Virus record (IMG/VR): IMGVR_UViG_3300019458_000364
Coordinates: 1 to 22,089 of that record
Length of the DNA: 22,089 bases
Strand: one strand, 5' to 3'
Source: a virus
A program made the translations under genes and the position numbers. Below the pieces are notes generated by a model, which had not been told where the DNA came from, made no database searches, and saw nothing but the letters and a program-made list of their open reading frames with translations. This document shows, one piece after another, positions 3,428 through 13,369 of the stretch (its first letter is position 1; each line of letters starts with the position of its first letter).

Positions 3428-4672
3428 TTATGCAACGGATCTTGCATTTGAGATGATCTCATCGAAACTCTGTCCCGAGGCCTGAAGCTTGCCGGTTTCA
3501 CCCGTAAAGTCCTGCCACCGCTTCACCGTCACATCGACATAGGCCGGGTCGATTTCGATCGCGTGGCAGATGCGCCCCGTCATCTCGGCGGCGATGATAG
3601 TGGTGCCGGATCCGACGAAGGGGTCGTAGACAGCCTGGCCCGTAGAAGAATTGTTCTCGATCGGCCGGCGCATGCACTCGACCGGCTTTTGGGTGCCGTG
3701 GCCGTGACCCGAGTCATCCCGGGCAGGAATCGTCCATAGCGTCGACTGCGATCGCCCTCCCGACCAGTGACCCTTGGCGCCGTCGCGGACCGCGTACCAG
3801 CACGGTTCATGCTGCCAGTGATAATCGCCGCGACTGAGCGCAAAACGATCCTTGCCCCAGATGATCTGGGCCCGCAGCGTAAACCCGCAGGCCTCAAGGC
3901 TTGCCGCAACGATGCTTGCGAACCGGCCAGCATGCCAGACGTAGGCGACGTCGCCAGGAAACAGAGCCCACGCCTCGCGCCAATCGGCGCGATCGTCATT
4001 GTCGACCTTGCCGAGCTTGCGCTTGTTGAGGTTGACGCCGGCACGCGCCCGCCAAGCCGGATCATAAGCCACACCATAAGGCGGGTCCGTCACCATCAGG
4101 TGTGGCACCACGCCATTCAGGCATTCCTTCACAACAGCTGCATCAGTGCAGTCGCCGCACGCCAATCGGTGTTGACCGAGGAGCCAGATATCGCCTGGCT
4201 TTGAGACCGGCCGCTCTGGCAGATCGGGAACTTGGTCCGGATCGGTCAGGCCAGCATTAGTCCTGGCCGAGAGTGCCGCAAGCTCTTGTTCCGAGAAACC
4301 GATCAGCGAGAGATCGAACCCGCCGGTAAGTTCCTGCAGCTCAGAAGCCAACAGCTTGCGGTCCCAGCTGGCATTCTCGGCGAGCTTGTTATCGGCGATC
4401 ACGTAAGCGCGGATCTGCGCCTGGCTCCAGCCGCGGGCGATCATTACCGGGACTTCTTCGAGCCCTAACTTGCGTGCGGCCAGCACCCGCGCGTGGCCGG
4501 CGATGATCGTGCCGTCCTCGGCGATCAGAACCGGATTGGTAAAGCCCCACTCAGCAATCGAGCGCGCCACCTGCTCAATCTGCTCGTCGCTGTGGGTGCG
4601 GCTGTTCCGAGCAAAGGGAACAAGAGCCGACACGGCCTTGCGTTCGACCTCGTCGGCCGGCCATTCGGGCAT
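3428..4672 (-). CDS. ParB-domain DNA methyltransferase (N4/N6, beta-type order)
   Basis: The ATG at 4672 follows a G-rich stretch (GGGGGGTCAG) and gives 414 residues; a TTG at 4690 is the alternative. Residues about 15-130 form a ParB/Srx-type domain (PFARNSRTHSDEQI, IIAGHARVLAARKLG, YVIADNKLAENASWD). A methyltransferase domain follows, with the catalytic DPPY at residues 196-199 and the SAM-binding FVGSGT at 352-357, then EIDPAYVDVTVKRW. DPPY before FxGxGT is the order of beta-class amino-methyltransferases, which make N6-methyladenine or N4-methylcytosine. No restriction enzyme lies beside it, so it is probably an orphan phage methyltransferase protecting the phage genome or marking packaging DNA. 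The target sequence cannot be read from the protein. Confidence 0.9.
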   Translation of the reverse strand: MPEWPADEVERKAVSALVPFARNSRTHSDEQIEQVARSIAEWGFTNPVLIAEDGTIIAGHARVLAARKLGLEEVPVMIARGWSQAQIRAYVIADNKLAENASWDRKLLASELQELTGGFDLSLIGFSEQELAALSARTNAGLTDPDQVPDLPERPVSKPGDIWLLGQHRLACGDCTDAAVVKECLNGVVPHLMVTDPPYGVAYDPAWRARAGVNLNKRKLGKVDNDDRADWREAWALFPGDVAYVWHAGRFASIVAASLEACGFTLRAQIIWGKDRFALSRGDYHWQHEPCWYAVRDGAKGHWSGGRSQSTLWTIPARDDSGHGHGTQKPVECMRRPIENNSSTGQAVYDPFVGSGTTIIAAEMTGRICHAIEIDPAYVDVTVKRWQDFTGETGKLQASGQSFDEIISNARSVA

Positions 4673-4773
4673 CTGACCCCCCGGTGTCAATTTCGCGGTG
4701 TTTTGTGCAAACTACGCCCCGCCGGGTCCCGTCAATCGGCGCTAAAGATCGACCCACCCCCACGCTCGGCAGG

Positions 4774-7247: not shown

Positions 7248-7501
7248 CGCGCGACCTCCTGCAGCACGGCCGCATAACCTGCGATATCGAGGATTGAGTC
7301 CTGGTGGCTCGGGTTGTGCCGGAGCCGCGTGAGCTTGAGATCGATCAGGCACAGCACGACTTCTGCCGGCGTGACCGGCCGGCCCAGCGTGATTGACCAG
7401 CGCCACGCAACCGCTTCCATCGAGGCAGCTGGATCGCCGTAGAGCTCGCGCCGCTCGGCGATGACATCCGCCGCGTGTCTCAGCATGGCTTCGCCACTCA
7501 C
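7244..7501 (-). CDS. DUF6378 family phage protein
   Basis: The GTG at 7501 overlaps the ruvC-like stop as GTGA and gives 85 residues; ATG 7486 is an alternative. The sequence RHAADVIAERRELYGDPAASMEAVAWRW, TPAEVVLCLIDLKLTRLRHNP and HQDSILDIAGYAAVLQEV matches the DUF6378 pattern found in phages. The D-x-DIAGYA arrangement and helical layout recall MazG-like nucleotide pyrophosphohydrolase relatives, but catalytic residues cannot be confirmed by eye. Function is unknown; context suggests a part in phage DNA metabolism. Confidence 0.75.
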   Translation of the reverse strand: MSGEAMLRHAADVIAERRELYGDPAASMEAVAWRWSITLGRPVTPAEVVLCLIDLKLTRLRHNPSHQDSILDIAGYAAVLQEVAR

Positions 7502-8250
7502 CGCACGCCTCCCTGCGTTTCAATGGCCCAGAGCAGGATGGCGATCGCGTCAGCTTCGTTATCGTCCTTGGGATTGAAGCCGCGCGCGCGGACGGCCGCG
7601 ATTACTGCTGCTTTGTCAGCGTTGCCCTTGCCAGTGACATGATGCTTGATGGTGCCTACGGGGACACCCTCATACGGGATGCCGCGCTGCTCACACCAGG
7701 CCGTCAACGTTGCCAAGAAGCCGCCATAGAGATGCGCTGCGTCGGTACCGAGGTGGCGGCGGACGCCTTCGTAATAGACCGCAGCGATGCCTCCGGTGAG
7801 TGCGGCGATGCTGTCGAGCCAGCCGCGGAAGCGCAGATAGCGCATGCCGCCGCCATCGTAGCGGCTTGGGCGGAAGGAGGTGGTGCTGCTCTCGATCTTG
7901 CCGCCGGCAAGCCGTACTGCCCAGCCCGTGGTGACGCCGAGGTCAAGAGCAAGAAGCGCACTCGACTGACGGTATGCGTCTCGATCTAGTGCGCTTGCGT
8001 CCTTTCCCGGTTCCTGCCCGACGGTCGTTGCGGGATGGGCAACGGTGGCAACGGTGGCAACACTCTGGCGTGGCGGCTGGAAGGGGCAATTTCTCGGCCA
8101 GTTTCCGGGCTTGGCAACGGTGGCAACGCTAGCAACGGTCTCTTGCAAACAATTTACCACGCGCCCGTGCGCGCACGTGCGCGCGCGCACGTTACACGTA
8201 TAGGAAAGACCGTTGTCACCGTTGCCTTCTAGGTAACCGGTTGCGTGCAT
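7498..8250 (-). CDS. RuvC-like Holliday junction resolvase with repeat-encoded N-terminus
   Basis: Residues about 98-245 form a RuvC/RNase H-fold nuclease: LLALDLGVTTGWA (Asp103), VYYEG (Glu161), PVGTIKHHVTGKGNADK and KDDNEADAIAI (Asp residues 229, 230 and 234). Such phage enzymes resolve branched recombination and replication intermediates before packaging. The start is the difficulty. The only ATG in frame close by is at 8250, with GGGAG 8 bases upstream, giving 250 residues. The first 75 residues are then encoded by the 9-base repeat clusters (repeated VATVA) and the GC-alternating tract (TCNVRARTCAHGR), so they are probably not a folded domain. GTG codons at 8190 and 8160 and a TTG at 8148 are alternatives. 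A much longer frame to 8538 overlaps the primase gene and is rejected. Confidence 0.85.
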   Translation of the reverse strand: MHATGYLEGNGDNGLSYTCNVRARTCAHGRVVNCLQETVASVATVAKPGNWPRNCPFQPPRQSVATVATVAHPATTVGQEPGKDASALDRDAYRQSSALLALDLGVTTGWAVRLAGGKIESSTTSFRPSRYDGGGMRYLRFRGWLDSIAALTGGIAAVYYEGVRRHLGTDAAHLYGGFLATLTAWCEQRGIPYEGVPVGTIKHHVTGKGNADKAAVIAAVRARGFNPKDDNEADAIAILLWAIETQGGVR

Positions 8251-8312
8251 TGAACAATCTCCCTTCTCATACCGTTGCCCAGACCGTTGCCCTAACCGTT
8301 GCCACCGTTGCC
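8038..8312. repeat. Opposed clusters of a 9-base GGCAACGGT motif, candidate origin/control region
   Basis: Rightward copies (GGCAACGGT) lie at 8038, 8047 and 8113, with one-mismatch copies at 8122 and 8131 and a partial copy at 8056. Leftward copies (ACCGTTGCC) lie at 8218, 8271, 8283, 8295 and 8304, with a one-mismatch copy at 8209. All right-half copies point against all left-half copies. Spacing is 9 or 12 bases within clusters. The last copy touches the stop codon of the primase gene (8312-8314). Confidence 0.85.
8167..8192. other. Alternating purine-pyrimidine tract with nested palindromes
   Basis: Twenty-six bases alternate strictly between purine and pyrimidine, containing the perfect palindromes GTGCGCGCAC and GTGCGCGCGCGCAC. 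Such DNA can form left-handed helix or cruciform under supercoiling. It lies almost exactly midway between the two opposed 9-base repeat clusters. Confidence 0.7.
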
Positions 8313-10669
8313 TAGTCCGTCGCGGAAGTCGTCCGGCCTCGCGCCGGAAAGTCGACAACGGTGCTGTCAGAGGCTTCGGGACGGCGATAGCGCTTTTCCC
8401 GCCGGCTCCCCCGGCGGGACCAGTAGAGCTTGAAGCCCATGCTGGTGAGGCAGCGGACGACACGGTTCTGATCGCCCTGTGTCCAGCGTCCGCGCTCCAG
8501 TCCGAGGGCCTGCTCGAGAACCTCACGCACGGAAACATCGCTCAGCGGCTGATTGCGCGGGAATGTGTGCTTGACGCGCTCGTGAAAGCCGTTGTCGGTC
8601 CACTGGAAATCATGGTCGAGCCATTCGCCGATGACCTCTTCCCAGGCATCCGCCTGATAGCGGTCTGCCTGTTGCTCGGCGGCGAGCCGGTCGAGCAGGG
8701 GAGTCTCCAGCCACCACGGCTCCCCTAGCAGGAAGCGCTCGCGGGCCTCGCCCCAGAGCTGGTTGCGATTTTGGGAGAGCGCCTCGAGTTTGATGGCTCG
8801 GCAGGCAATGGGCCAGAACCGCCTTCCGCCCGTTGCATCCTTGAGATAGCCGCCTTCGGGATTGATGCTGCCGGCGAACACGCACTGGCGCGGAAGATCG
8901 ACCAACCGCTTGCCATAGGGCGGCCGGAATCGGTCATGCGTGCGGGACATGAAGGCCTTGATCGAGCTCACTTCGGCTCTGGTCATGGTGTCGAGCTCGG
9001 CCACCTCGATGATCCAGACCCCGCGCGTCTCCATGGCCGCATCCTTGCTGCCGAGGTCGGAGAGGCGGTCGGTGAACCAGGGCTCGGCGAGCACTTTGAG
9101 TGCGGAGGATTTGCGGATGCCCTGCGGCCCTTCGAGGATAAGCACGCAATCGGCCTTGCAGCCCGGGCGGTAGATGCGCGCGACCGCGGAGATGAGCCAA
9201 CGTGGGCCGATGGCCCGCGTGTAGGGCGTGTCGGCGGCGTCGAGATAATGGATGAGCCAGGTGTCGAGGCGTGAGATGCCATCCCACGTCAGGCCGTCGA
9301 GATATTCCCGCACGGGATGGAAGGGGCGATCGCTGGCCACGGTCTCGACCGCTTGCCCGGCCACGGAGGCGGGCACCATGATGCCGTGGCGTTGCAGCCA
9401 TTCGGTGACGAGATAGTCGTCTCGATCCGACCAATTCTGATCTGTTGCTTGCGATGCGAGCGGCGCCCATGGCAGGGGTCTGCGGGCAACCGTTCGGGTT
9501 GCGAAGTCGTCATGCCAGAGAACCTCTTCCCATTCGCCCGCGCTACGCAGCGCATGGATGGCATTGGCAAGGATGGGAAGAATTTTGCCGTCTCGGCTGC
9601 GCAGCAGGCCTGTCTTCCAGGCCTGTGACCGGTCTTGCGGTGCTGTCTTGGCCTCCGTCGCAGCCATTACAAGAGCTCGCGCGGCGTTCGCGCCTTCGCG
9701 GAGCAACAGATCGTTGAAGTCGTCGCCTTGGCGCGGCGGCAGCGCGAGGAAGACCTGACGGCCATCCATGGCAAGCTTTGCCGCTGTGGCTTGAGCGGCA
9801 CGGCGTCCAGCATCGTCGTGATCGACGAGCAGAACCACGCGCGTGATGTCGGGTGGCAGGACGATGCTCTCCATGCCTTGCGCGGAGAGCGTCGCCCACG
9901 CGGGTAGATCCGGGCAGGCCGTCATGACGGCAAGAGCGGTCTCTATGCCTTCGGCAAGTCCGATGAGGCCGTCGCGGGGTTCGGCCAATCGCACGGCGCC
10001 GCCGCCGACGGATCCGAGCGTCTTGCGCGCGGGCGAGATCTCAGCCTTGGCGGGCTTCTGGGGATCGAGATAGGTGCGATGGAGCGCGAGCTGCTGGCCG
10101 GCTGCGTCACGGACGATGGCGACCATGCCGGGAAAGCCGCGCTTGACCTCCCAATGGGCAAGGTCGGGATGGAACAGGAGATCGGGCGAGGCGGGCGCCG
10201 TAATCCCGCGCGCAGCGAGATACGCTTCCGCGTGCGTGCCGACGAGAGGTCGGGCGTGCGAGAGGATGATGGTAATCTCCCGCGCGGTGTCTTCCGGCGA
10301 CTGCCGTTTCGGCTTTCCTGCTGGGCGCGGCGTGGACTGGGCGAGGCCTGCGACATCGGCCGCATAGGCGAAGAGCGGCGCTCCCTTGAGTCCGGTTGCC
10401 TCGCCGAGCGCGCTCAGAGGATCGCCGCCCTTCTGGCCATCGTGGTCGTACCAATCGCCAGCGTGCGCATCCTTCAGCGCAATAACGCAGGAGCCATTCT
10501 TGCGCGGGGCGCGACCAGAGATGTCGGCGAGCCGCCACTCGTCGCCCTCGCGTCGGCCGTTGGGGAAATGTCGTGGCACCCAGATCGCCGCCGTCTCGCG
10601 CAGGCGTGCGACGATCGCCTCGAGATCGAAGCGGGGTGGAGGGGCGCTAGCGTCATTGAGGTCGATCAT
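8312..10669 (-). CDS. Phage primase-helicase (Toprim + VapE-type ATPase)
   Basis: A 785-residue protein; the ATG at 10669 has GAGGGGG 6 bases upstream. Residues 20-110 resemble the N-terminal region of phage primases (GRAPRKNGSC, GDWYDHDGQKGGDPLSAL). A DUF7146/Toprim part follows at about 125-335, with the catalytic Glu240 in GLAEGIETALA and Asp283/285/286 in LVDHDDAGRRAA. The second half (about 405-690) is a VapE-type helicase: Walker A GPQGIRKSS at 514-522 (Arg in place of the usual last Gly), Walker B-like WIIEVAELD, then SRTHDRFRPPYGK, VFAGSINPE and DATGGRRFWPI. It should prime and unwind DNA at the phage origin. The 9-base repeat region lies directly downstream, which fits an origin there. 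Both domains appear intact. Confidence 0.92.
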   Translation of the reverse strand: MIDLNDASAPPPRFDLEAIVARLRETAAIWVPRHFPNGRREGDEWRLADISGRAPRKNGSCVIALKDAHAGDWYDHDGQKGGDPLSALGEATGLKGAPLFAYAADVAGLAQSTPRPAGKPKRQSPEDTAREITIILSHARPLVGTHAEAYLAARGITAPASPDLLFHPDLAHWEVKRGFPGMVAIVRDAAGQQLALHRTYLDPQKPAKAEISPARKTLGSVGGGAVRLAEPRDGLIGLAEGIETALAVMTACPDLPAWATLSAQGMESIVLPPDITRVVLLVDHDDAGRRAAQATAAKLAMDGRQVFLALPPRQGDDFNDLLLREGANAARALVMAATEAKTAPQDRSQAWKTGLLRSRDGKILPILANAIHALRSAGEWEEVLWHDDFATRTVARRPLPWAPLASQATDQNWSDRDDYLVTEWLQRHGIMVPASVAGQAVETVASDRPFHPVREYLDGLTWDGISRLDTWLIHYLDAADTPYTRAIGPRWLISAVARIYRPGCKADCVLILEGPQGIRKSSALKVLAEPWFTDRLSDLGSKDAAMETRGVWIIEVAELDTMTRAEVSSIKAFMSRTHDRFRPPYGKRLVDLPRQCVFAGSINPEGGYLKDATGGRRFWPIACRAIKLEALSQNRNQLWGEARERFLLGEPWWLETPLLDRLAAEQQADRYQADAWEEVIGEWLDHDFQWTDNGFHERVKHTFPRNQPLSDVSVREVLEQALGLERGRWTQGDQNRVVRCLTSMGFKLYWSRRGSRREKRYRRPEASDSTVVDFPARGRTTSATD

Positions 10670-10679
10670 GCGCGCCCCC

Positions 10680-12605
10680 TCAGTCCAGGATCACGAGCCC
10701 GCGCTCGGCGCGCGTGATGGCGGTGTAGAGCCAGTGCGCGCGATCTTCGGCGGTGCGGCCCAGCCCGTCGTCAAAGACGATTACGTTCTCCCACTGGCTT
10801 CCCTGTGCCTTGTGACAGGTGATCGCCCAGCCCCACACCGCCTCAATGATCGTTTTCTTCTTCCAGTGATCGCGACGCTGGCGCTCGGGATCGGGCGCGA
10901 CGTGGTCGGCGAAATATCCCTTGTAGATACGGAAGCGCTCGCGTGCGCCATTGGCCCCGCCGATCTTCTGGCCGTCCTCGGTGGTGATCACGGCACTGCA
11001 GGAGATGTCGTCCTCGTCCTTCACCTCGGTGAGGTCGAGGAACATGCCGTTGATGAGGCCGAGATCGTTGCGGTTCTTGAGGCAGATGATCTTTTCACCG
11101 CAGCCTGAGGGATAGACGCCGTCGAAGCCGGCCGCACGCTTCATGGCGAGATTGAGCTGCAACCGCGTCGCGTTCCTGCCGCAGATGACCTGGCCGCCGC
11201 AAAGCATCTGCGCCGGCGTGACCTCATCCCTCCGCATCTTCCAGACGAAGGTGTCGTGCTCACCGTAAGGAATGGGCTTGCCTTCGCGCGCGAGCGTGGC
11301 GAGGCGAATGATGGCGCTCTCGCCAGCCTGGCGGTGGATCTCAGTTAGCATCACGTCGGGCTTGGCTTGCGTGAACGCGCCTTCGCCCTTCACTGGCGGA
11401 AGCTGCCCGGGATCGCCGAGCACGAGGATCGGCTTGCCGAAGGCCAGCAGATCGCGCGCCATGGCGTCGCCGACCATCGACACCTCGTCTAGCACCAGAA
11501 GCTTGGCGTCGCGCAGGGCCGACTGCTCGTTGAGCACGAAGCGCGGCTTGTGGCTATCGGCGAGACGAAGCTCAAGCGAGCGAAGCTGCGATTCCGCGAA
11601 CAGACGCTCGGCGGCGCCCATAGCGGGCAGCTTCGCCTTGAGATCGGCGATTTCCTCCTTGATCCGCTCGATCTCGGCGGGGGTCGCTTCCGAGACCCGG
11701 TAGATCAGCGAATGGATGGTCGAAGCCGGCGTGCCCTTGCGGGTCATGACGAGGGCCGCCTTGCCGGTGAACGCCGAATACAGGACGCCGTTCGGACCGT
11801 CCTCCAGGCCCAGCTCCTCAATGGCGTGTCTCGTAATGGTTGTTTTTCCCGATCCCGCATAGCCAAACACGCGGAACACCTGCTGTTTTGCCGTGCGGTT
11901 GATGAACCAATCCTTGATCGCGGTGATGGCGCGCGTCTGGGCGTCGGACGGGGTGAAGCCGCTCATAAGTGGACCTCTCGGCAGAAGCATTTCAATGGAA
12001 TGGGATTCGATCAGCGTGTTGCTGTTCGAAGGTTGCTCGTCCGGAACGTGGCCCCAGCTTCTGCCGCGGATCACGTCGGAGACGGTCACGATGTGTATGC
12101 CGAATTTCTGTGCGATGGTCGCCAGTGAGGCCCCCGTTCGACGCATCGACCGAACTCGTGGAATATCGGCTTCCGTCAGTTTTGCTCCGCCCACCCGGCT
12201 TCCTTTTGGGGTGTTGCGGTTCCATCCCTTGTTCCGCATCCGGTCATTGTGGTTATCCAACCTTGTGCCCCACCTGAGGTTCTCAACCACATTGTTCGAC
12301 GGAACATCATCGAGGTGACGCACGATCGCATCGGGAGAAGGAGGCGGCCCAATGAACGCGAGCGCGACGAGCCGGTGAACCCATTGCTTCTTCGTATTTC
12401 CGTCGCGAACAAGCATTACGTACTGGTGTCCGCTACGACGTGAGACTGCTGGTTTCAGTTCATGTCCAGCAGGCCAATTGTGCTTTGCAACCGCGCGCCT
12501 GATACAGCCTCGATTACTCACCTCGTAGTTCGAATAATTGGGAACCTCGCGCCACTCCTCGGTCGCATCACCGTGCGCAATGACCGCAGGAGCGATACTG
12601 TTCAT
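10680..12605 (-). CDS. RecD/Dda-like helicase with N-terminal NUMOD4-HNH domain in frame
   Basis: The ATG at 12605 overlaps the upstream stop as ATGA and opens a 641-residue frame. Residues 17-65 look like NUMOD4 (EWREVPNYSNYEVSNRGCIRR). About 80-130 is an HNH_3 nuclease (VHRLVALAFIG, VRHLDDVPSNN, VENLRWGT, DNHNDR), and about 155-200 is a small DNA-binding helix-turn-helix (ATIAQKFGIHIVTVSDVIRGRSW). The helicase begins at residue 214, whose ATG (11966) has AGAGG upstream and could start a separate 428-residue protein. It has Walker A GYAGSGKTT, LVLDEVSMVGD, LGDPGQLPPV and WAITCHKAQGSQW, typical of superfamily 1 RecD-like enzymes. The first part has lower GC and reads as an inserted homing-type nuclease. 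Whether a fused protein, two proteins or both are made is open. Confidence 0.88.
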   Translation of the reverse strand: MNSIAPAVIAHGDATEEWREVPNYSNYEVSNRGCIRRAVAKHNWPAGHELKPAVSRRSGHQYVMLVRDGNTKKQWVHRLVALAFIGPPPSPDAIVRHLDDVPSNNVVENLRWGTRLDNHNDRMRNKGWNRNTPKGSRVGGAKLTEADIPRVRSMRRTGASLATIAQKFGIHIVTVSDVIRGRSWGHVPDEQPSNSNTLIESHSIEMLLPRGPLMSGFTPSDAQTRAITAIKDWFINRTAKQQVFRVFGYAGSGKTTITRHAIEELGLEDGPNGVLYSAFTGKAALVMTRKGTPASTIHSLIYRVSEATPAEIERIKEEIADLKAKLPAMGAAERLFAESQLRSLELRLADSHKPRFVLNEQSALRDAKLLVLDEVSMVGDAMARDLLAFGKPILVLGDPGQLPPVKGEGAFTQAKPDVMLTEIHRQAGESAIIRLATLAREGKPIPYGEHDTFVWKMRRDEVTPAQMLCGGQVICGRNATRLQLNLAMKRAAGFDGVYPSGCGEKIICLKNRNDLGLINGMFLDLTEVKDEDDISCSAVITTEDGQKIGGANGARERFRIYKGYFADHVAPDPERQRRDHWKKKTIIEAVWGWAITCHKAQGSQWENVIVFDDGLGRTAEDRAHWLYTAITRAERGLVILD

Positions 12606-13369
12606 CGGCCCATCTCCCAGCAACGGCCGGCATAAGGGCAGGCGCGGCAGAGATAGAAGTCGGAGGCGGCGGCAATTCGGGGCGGCAGCTCGCCCGCCTC
12701 GGCGGCGCGGATGATCTCGACTGCCTTGTCGGAGAGCGCCTGCGCCTCAACCGAATCGAAAGGAACGACCTCGTGGTGGAGGAGCTGATTGTCCTTATTG
12801 AGGGCAGTGAAGAGCGCGGCCTCGAGCTCCATGTAGGCCATGTAGAGCTGGACTTGCGCGAAGTAGAGCGGCTTCGAAGCGCGAAGGCCTCGCTTGACGA
12901 GCTCGTTCCAGGATTTGGCGTTGAGCGCCTTGTGCTCCCACAGGGCAGGCCAAAGGATGCCGATATCGGGCCCAGCGACGATCACGCCGTCGATATGGCC
13001 GCGGAGTCTGCCGCCGGCGGCCGAGAAACCGAATTGGCTGCCATCACGGCGTTCCGATCTGAGATCGAAGCCCGCGGCACGCAGCCAGCGGACCGACAGC
13101 GCCTCGAAACGGTGGCCGGCTTCGAAGATGCGCAAAGCCGCACCATCGATCTCGCGACCCTCATCCGGCGGCACATGGGTGATCTCGTAGACGAGCTTGC
13201 GCGCGCAGGGCTCGCCTATGCGACTTGCGCCCAGATAGTCGCGCGCTGGTTCCGCCTGTCGTTCGGCCAGCAACGCGGCATCGATCAGGCCGTTGATCCG
13301 GGCAGCGACGCTGTCGGCCCGAGCGCCGCCATAGGTGAAACCGGAAGTGTGATTGAGATCGACGAGCAT
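12602..13369 (-). CDS. PD-(D/E)XK nuclease, Cas4/RecB-like
   Basis: The ATG at 13369 with GAGG 8 bases upstream gives 255 residues; TTG 13381 is an alternative. The nuclease core shows GHIDGVIV (Asp127), LWEHKALNAKSW (Glu145, Lys147) and YFAQVQLYMAY (Gln172, Tyr176), the RecB/Cas4 arrangement. Cys55 in GEPCARKLVYE together with Cys241, Cys244 and Cys250 in CRACPYAGRC gives the four-cysteine pattern that holds an iron-sulfur cluster in Cas4 and AddB-type nucleases. In phages such enzymes act as exonucleases in recombination, next to an ATPase and an ssDNA-binding protein, as here. The helicase gene overlaps its stop by 4 bases. There are no CRISPR genes, so a Cas4 role in adaptation is not suggested. 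Confidence 0.88.
   Translation of the reverse strand: MLVDLNHTSGFTYGGARADSVAARINGLIDAALLAERQAEPARDYLGASRIGEPCARKLVYEITHVPPDEGREIDGAALRIFEAGHRFEALSVRWLRAAGFDLRSERRDGSQFGFSAAGGRLRGHIDGVIVAGPDIGILWPALWEHKALNAKSWNELVKRGLRASKPLYFAQVQLYMAYMELEAALFTALNKDNQLLHHEVVPFDSVEAQALSDKAVEIIRAAEAGELPPRIAAASDFYLCRACPYAGRCWEMGR

Follow-up and report, generated by a model that had tools for sequence, protein, structure and literature searches.

A symmetric iteron array beside a phage primase-helicase gene is a probable replication origin matched to the winged helix of the helicase

We suggest that the repeat array at 8038–8312 of the window (the whole stretch of virus DNA analysed here, 22,089 nucleotides) is very probably a phage replication origin, in which twelve 9-bp iterons would be bound by the C-terminal winged helices of the adjacent primase-helicase. 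The initial annotation had proposed an origin at this place, and the proposal is supported by the conserved layout of the array and by the covariation of its motif with the C-terminal winged helix of the helicase. The layout, its conservation and the coupling between repeat and winged helix are well supported by the sequence comparisons presented below. From these we infer physical binding, a double hexamer, melting of the centre and origin activity.

Results

Twelve iterons in two opposed arms

The array is built of eleven 9-mers and a degenerate twelfth copy, which gives six copies per arm, with the arms opposed and separated by a 69-nt centre. The eleven copies had already been reported, and our re-scan recovered all of them at the same coordinates and in the same orientations. 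The left arm lies on the plus strand. It begins with the outer iterons GGCAACGGT, exact at 8038 and 8047 (within 8038–8064), which are followed by the degenerate copy GGCAACACT at 8056–8064 with two mismatches. The inner triplet of this arm has 9-bp spacing and occupies 8113–8139 (8113 exact; 8122 and 8131 with one mismatch each). The right arm lies on the minus strand, with inner iterons at 8209–8226 (8209 with one mismatch, and 8218) and outer iterons at 8271–8312 (8271, 8283, 8295 and 8304). The whole window contains 22 matches to the motif at ≤1 mismatch, compared with 5.0 ± 2.3 in shuffles, none of 100 of which attains 22, and half of these matches are held by the 275 bp of the array. A lone copy with one mismatch, GACAACGGT, lies outside the array at 8354–8362, within the 3′ end of the primase-helicase gene. 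GC skew is nearly flat over 3 kb on each side of the array (−0.018 vs +0.009) and is of no help; we also considered it as an origin indicator across arrays and rejected it, since the signal is too weak to use.

The central region (8140–8208) is not AT-rich. Its GC content is 59% and the lowest 30-nt value is 0.40. It carries a strictly alternating, Z-prone purine-pyrimidine tract of 27 nt at 8166–8192, with nested perfect palindromes at 8166–8177, 8169–8184 and 8175–8192, so that the alternating centre with palindromes described earlier is borne out. This is the longest alternating run of the window (the runner-up has 16 nt), and it is placed at relative position 0.48 of the array.

Neighbouring genes

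The array is located directly 3′ of the gene of the primase-helicase P0001 (8312–10669, minus strand), the proposed initiator, and its last iteron (8304–8312) touches the stop codon of this gene. The primase half of P0001 comprises DUF7146 and Toprim domains. The helicase half is VapE-like (PF05272, 258.7 bits against a curated cut-off of 25). On the other side lies the gene of a RuvC-like resolvase (7498–8250, minus strand). Its frame stays open across the whole array, and the nearest good start is the ATG at 8250, within the array, which is preceded by the likely Shine-Dalgarno sequence AGAAGGGAG at 8260–8268 (minus strand), between the inner and outer iterons. Hence, the RuvC N-terminus may be encoded within the array. 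The initial annotation had placed the array between the two genes. The two genes share the minus strand, however, which puts the array downstream of the primase-helicase, and the RuvC frame runs through it.

To the right of the array, the primase-helicase is joined by an HNH/Dda-like helicase ORF, a Cas4-type exonuclease and a Sak4-like protein; the RuvC-like resolvase is encoded on the left, and all of these genes are on the minus strand. The ORF at 10680–12623 combines a NUMOD4/HNH endonuclease-like part (residues ~20–195) with a Dda-like helicase part (residues 220–645), possibly through fusion with, or invasion by, a homing endonuclease. A ParB-like N-terminal domain fused to an N6/N4 DNA methyltransferase is encoded at 3428–4690. 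Capsid and tail families were absent from the scanned ORFs of this 22-kb IMG/VR virus record, which may be a fragment.

The layout is conserved among relatives and the motif is not

We compared the window with two groups of helicases. Group A comprises VapE helicases resembling that of the window. In group B the Toprim primase half is the same, and the helicase joined to it is a different one, which Pfam does not recognise. The window protein is a mosaic, whose primase half shares 59% identity with group B and whose helicase half shares ~70% with the Roseomonas branch of group A.

Clusters of GGCAACGGT were absent from the corresponding junction in the 43 loci with P0001 relatives, from which we suspected that the origin reading was refuted. 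A motif-blind scan for repeated 8-mers then revealed arrays with other motifs in 37 of the 43 loci. The remaining six end short of the expected array site, so that every locus reaching far enough has an array. Roseomonas, Erythrobacter and Parvibaculum are represented among the loci. The absence of any such repeat from related prophages had been named as evidence against an origin, and the outcome is the opposite. Of the expected likeness to related loci, the exact motif is missing, but an array of equal size and equal layout is present. The 37 arrays hold 5–12 exact 8-mers and adjoin the helicase gene or lie at its 3′ end. Further scans raised the number to >100 arrays with many different motifs, among them GGGGAACGT, TGTGAACCT, GTGAATGT, GGGGACCT, GGTCCGGGT, TGGTCCCAGT and GTTGGTGAC. 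Similar repeat clusters are also found beside VapE genes in Marinobacter phage PS3 and in Roseomonas and Komagataeibacter plasmids.

With copies counted at ≤1 mismatch, arrays of both groups most often have 12 copies in total (12–13 in most of group B) and six in an arm. Two inner runs, each of three copies ~9 bp apart, flank the central gap, whose median length is 86 bp in group A and 66 bp in group B. In group B this gap contains an extended alternating tract, with a median length of 26 nt (control windows average 8 nt), at relative position 0.53 of the array. In the L067–L094 clade of group A the centres are mostly AT-rich, which is the classical arrangement.

The place of the array relative to the gene varies. 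In the Roseomonas branch it starts 4–36 nt past the helicase stop codon, and in other members of group A it lies up to 4218 nt from the helicase gene. In group B it is found, with few exceptions, within the last ~330 nt of the helicase ORF, where the frame is kept and a conserved PDWLKEVL-like tail follows the array. The possible array-encoded N-terminal extension of RuvC in the window parallels group B, where the array encodes the helicase C-terminus.

A search with the C-terminal domain of the window helicase returned one contig, already in the set, and no near twin. An exact 18-mer search of viral contigs gave 89 stretches, most of which form no dense array and several of which are same-strand clusters. 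Dense arrays with both orientations in balance are confined to L294 and L314. At 4027–4263 of L294, eight GGCAACGGT-like copies, in both orientations, surround an AT-rich centre, and the end of a VapE-type helicase is at 1371; here the same iteron was apparently arrived at independently. L314 has a GGCGACGGT/GGCAACGGT array in both orientations at 258–573, also with an AT-rich centre, and no helicase in the fetched piece.

Several other repeats were seen in the course of the scans. L067, L068 and L070 have, at ~9.0–9.6 kb, clusters of GGTTTCCA/GGTTACCA ~2.8 kb downstream of the helicase, which are unlike the expected iterons and are possibly a second site for another protein. Array families TGGCCACA, AGTTGCCA/AAGTTGCC and CTTCCGCC lie upstream of RuvC relatives in L181, L197–L204, L225–L232, L242 and L256, in part with other replication genes. 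A tandem CAAGCCAA/GCCAAGCC repeat of 6–7 copies at 11818–11878 of L102 (a contig shared with L022) is unrelated to the origin array.

The motif changes together with the winged helix

In group B the winged helix immediately upstream of the array varies along with the motif. This is seen already in a near-identical pair, where L103 has a GTYQGV wing with GTGGACGT and L115 a GVKHQA wing with GGGGAACGT. Residue 855 predicts motif position 2 in 67 of 68 sequences (His with G in 43/44; Arg, Gln or Ser with T in 24/24). Residue 857 predicts position 4, again in 67/68 (Ala with A in 54/55; Thr, Val or Ser with G in 13/13), and residue 825 predicts position 6 (Thr with C in 56/57; Ile with T in 8/8). 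Step counts were made on FastTree trees with midpoint rooting, for group B on a tree of residues 1–790, i.e. of the rest of the protein. Motif, residue and joint state require 13, 13 and 14 steps for 855 and position 2, 10, 9 and 10 for 857 and position 4, and 11, 10 and 11 for 825 and position 6. These counts indicate repeated, nearly simultaneous switches rather than one inherited difference. Among the top 30 column-motif couplings of the whole group B protein, 17 fall in residues 800–862, where 2 are expected. All but one of the remaining 13 are in the array-encoded tail, where couplings are trivial. With this tail set aside, the winged helix takes 17 of the 18 strongest couplings.

For group A, mutual information with APC over the whole protein, with the window included, was confounded by clades. 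The ranking was dominated by clade-specific and window-only residues, and 6 of the top 20 columns were in the winged helix (2.5 expected). We replaced it by a ranking per motif position without the window, combined with step counts on the tree; the motif register was set by hand. The best of ~450 helicase columns are then 731 for position 2, 759 for position 3 and 750 for positions 6/7, all within the winged helix. The pairings are Q-C, R-T and K-G at residue 731, R-C and W-T at 759, and R/K-GA and Q-TG at 750. With the window included, the steps for motif, residue and joint state are 7/7/7 for 731, 2/2/2 for 759 and 6/6/6 for 750. The same rule holds for group A arrays as far as 4.2 kb from their helicase gene.

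In the window the winged helix (residues 714–763, with covarying residues 731, 738, 750 and 759) is encoded at 8381–8530 on the minus strand. Its AlphaFold2 model has the recognition helix at residues 731–743 and the wing strands at 747–753 and 756–762. In the models of the helicases of both families (mean pLDDT 76 and 80) the covarying residues fall in the recognition helix and the beta-hairpin wing. Gln731 and Lys759 of the window match the rule, by which C is predicted at positions 2 and 3 of ACCGTTGCC (ACC...); Trp750 has no precedent. As no close relative with GGCAACGGT at the junction was found, the pairing of the window itself rests on rules from other sequences. Since the repeats change together with residues of the recognition helix and wing on the tree of the remaining protein, we suggest that the primase-helicase very probably reads the repeats through its C-terminal winged helix.

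Discussion

Proposed mechanism

Step 1: The winged helices of the helicase would bind the six iterons of each arm, and each arm would assemble one hexamer. With six iterons in each arm, a single hexamer per arm is the most parsimonious assumption.

Step 2: The two rings would face one another over the centre and then open it.

Step 3: The rings would load onto the separated strands, and the first primers would presumably be made by the fused Toprim primase.

A GC-rich, Z-prone tract in place of an AT-rich one is surprising. Its conservation at the exact centre of the array argues for a role, which may be unwinding, cruciform formation, a priming hairpin or spacing. It is possible, although we hold it for doubtful as a whole, that these arrays form a class of origins in which two hexamers, each held by six iterons, open an alternating-GC tract prone to Z-DNA or cruciforms instead of an AT-rich element, for example by opening at a B-Z junction or by Toprim priming from a hairpin. 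In such a class a simple code from winged-helix residues to bases would let iterons and initiator switch together, and the origin would sometimes lie inside the initiator gene.

Other explanations of the array

Iteron initiators often regulate their own operons, and the RuvC gene starts within or downstream of the array. The helicase-bound repeats could thus be mainly an operator, or a copy-control or handcuffing site, tuning RuvC and other downstream genes while replication starts elsewhere. We consider this unlikely. The promoter and terminator scan was negative, with no sigma-70-like promoter in 7900–8500, and arrays of group A that are kilobases off still keep the motif predicted by their helicase. 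The array of group B is inside the helicase gene, far from the promoter of that gene, and the 6+6 symmetry with a central gap is better suited to helicase loading. An operator role may nevertheless exist alongside origin function. Still less likely is that the repeats are sites of another phage protein and that the link to the helicase is hitch-hiking. Further DNA-binding proteins are indeed encoded nearby, such as a DUF6362 sigma-like protein and an excisionase-type HTH protein. However, the rest of the helicase is equally tightly linked and lacks the coupling, which beyond the tail is concentrated in the winged helix, and on the tree of the remaining protein the coupled residues and the motif switch together. 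Hitch-hiking leaves unexplained why these residues fall in the winged helix of the helicase.

The initial annotation had also pointed out that the two arms can pair and that a structural RNA was possible. Such pairing in the helicase-RuvC operon transcript might control translation or stability. The predicted fold is far stabler than in shuffles (−153 vs −108 kcal/mol, z −8.2), but inverted repeats yield such a fold automatically. Many arms of group B mix orientations (e.g. --+---|+++--+) and still have about six copies. In addition, the repeats and residues of a DNA-binding domain have switched together many times independently, and nothing in an RNA hairpin calls for this; such covariation fits origin iterons and is unexpected for a structural RNA, to which we give very little weight. 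Just as improbable in our view is a recombination or resolution site worked by the adjoining RuvC-like resolvase. RuvC adjoins the array in many loci and cruciform extrusion from the central palindromes is possible, but the VapE-adjacent clusters of Marinobacter phage PS3 and of the two plasmids have no annotated RuvC beside them, and the identity of the iteron goes with the helicase. An origin read by the primase-helicase is therefore the explanation that we prefer.

Relation to known systems

By sequence, the helicase half of the window protein matches VapE/PriRep1 of SaPI (PDB 7pds, solved with dsDNA) with E 5e-63, and this is also its best fold match. The proposed origin resembles the Pri-Rep origins of SaPIs and PICIs (PMC6092414; PMC7581432), where a helicase, often fused to a primase, reads short iterons through its C-terminal domain, as the sequence suggests for the window. 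In both, the origin is directly 3′ of the initiator gene (here in the window and its Roseomonas-group relatives) and the central segment has a set of iterons on either side, with six copies per arm in the window. PICI origins have an AT-rich centre, the proposed site of melting (PMC6092414), whereas the centre of the window is alternating GC and a part of its family has the array in coding sequence. The PICI layout was stated to be common to no other known element (PMC6092414), and the arrays described here widen it beyond that statement. Unlike SaPIs and PICIs, the window comes from a virus record whose replication and recombination genes are of phage type, and it is no recognised PICI.

The O protein of phage lambda has iterons inside its own initiator gene and forms type-specific initiator-origin pairs. 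Group B is similar in that its iterons sit in the coding sequence of their own proposed initiator; lambda O differs in not being a helicase and in having four iterons and an adjacent AT-rich segment. The alpha protein of satellite phage P4 is a fusion of primase, helicase and initiator which recognises short repeats of the origin with its C-terminal part. The P4 sites ori and crr are two separate ones with other repeats, while here there is one symmetric 6+6 array and the primase half is of Toprim (DnaG-like) type. The alpha protein and its cognate site are mentioned in PMC6092414. In the RepA_N/ori system of PLE (PMC7145576, PMC8263062) the DNA-binding domain likewise varies along with the origin, and the two are exchanged together as a module; that initiator has neither helicase nor primase, and its iterons are of ~30 bp. 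Cch2 of SCCmec (PMC7581432), a helicase of initiator type, uses its C-terminal domain to bind iterons located downstream of its own gene, as would be the case in the window, but it has three 5-nt iterons and a separate primase-polymerase. In the literature searched, with partial coverage, we found no account of such arrays in phages and none of Z-DNA with iterons.

Significance

In principle, this is an ordinary origin of the initiator-helicase kind. New are the layout in phages and prophages, the centre of alternating GC instead of AT-rich DNA, the arrays within coding sequence and the readable recognition code. With this analysis, a large set of poorly annotated phages, prophages and related plasmids gains a probable origin and a probable initiator, and the PICI-style layout of origins seems to extend beyond PICIs. 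Whether such an origin can open without an AT-rich element is a question raised by the conserved alternating-GC centre. Last, the arrays provide a natural series of initiator-origin pairs with a specificity readable from a few residues (H855, A857 and T825 in group B; 731, 750 and 759 in group A), so that origin recognition by self-loading helicases becomes testable by predicted swaps.
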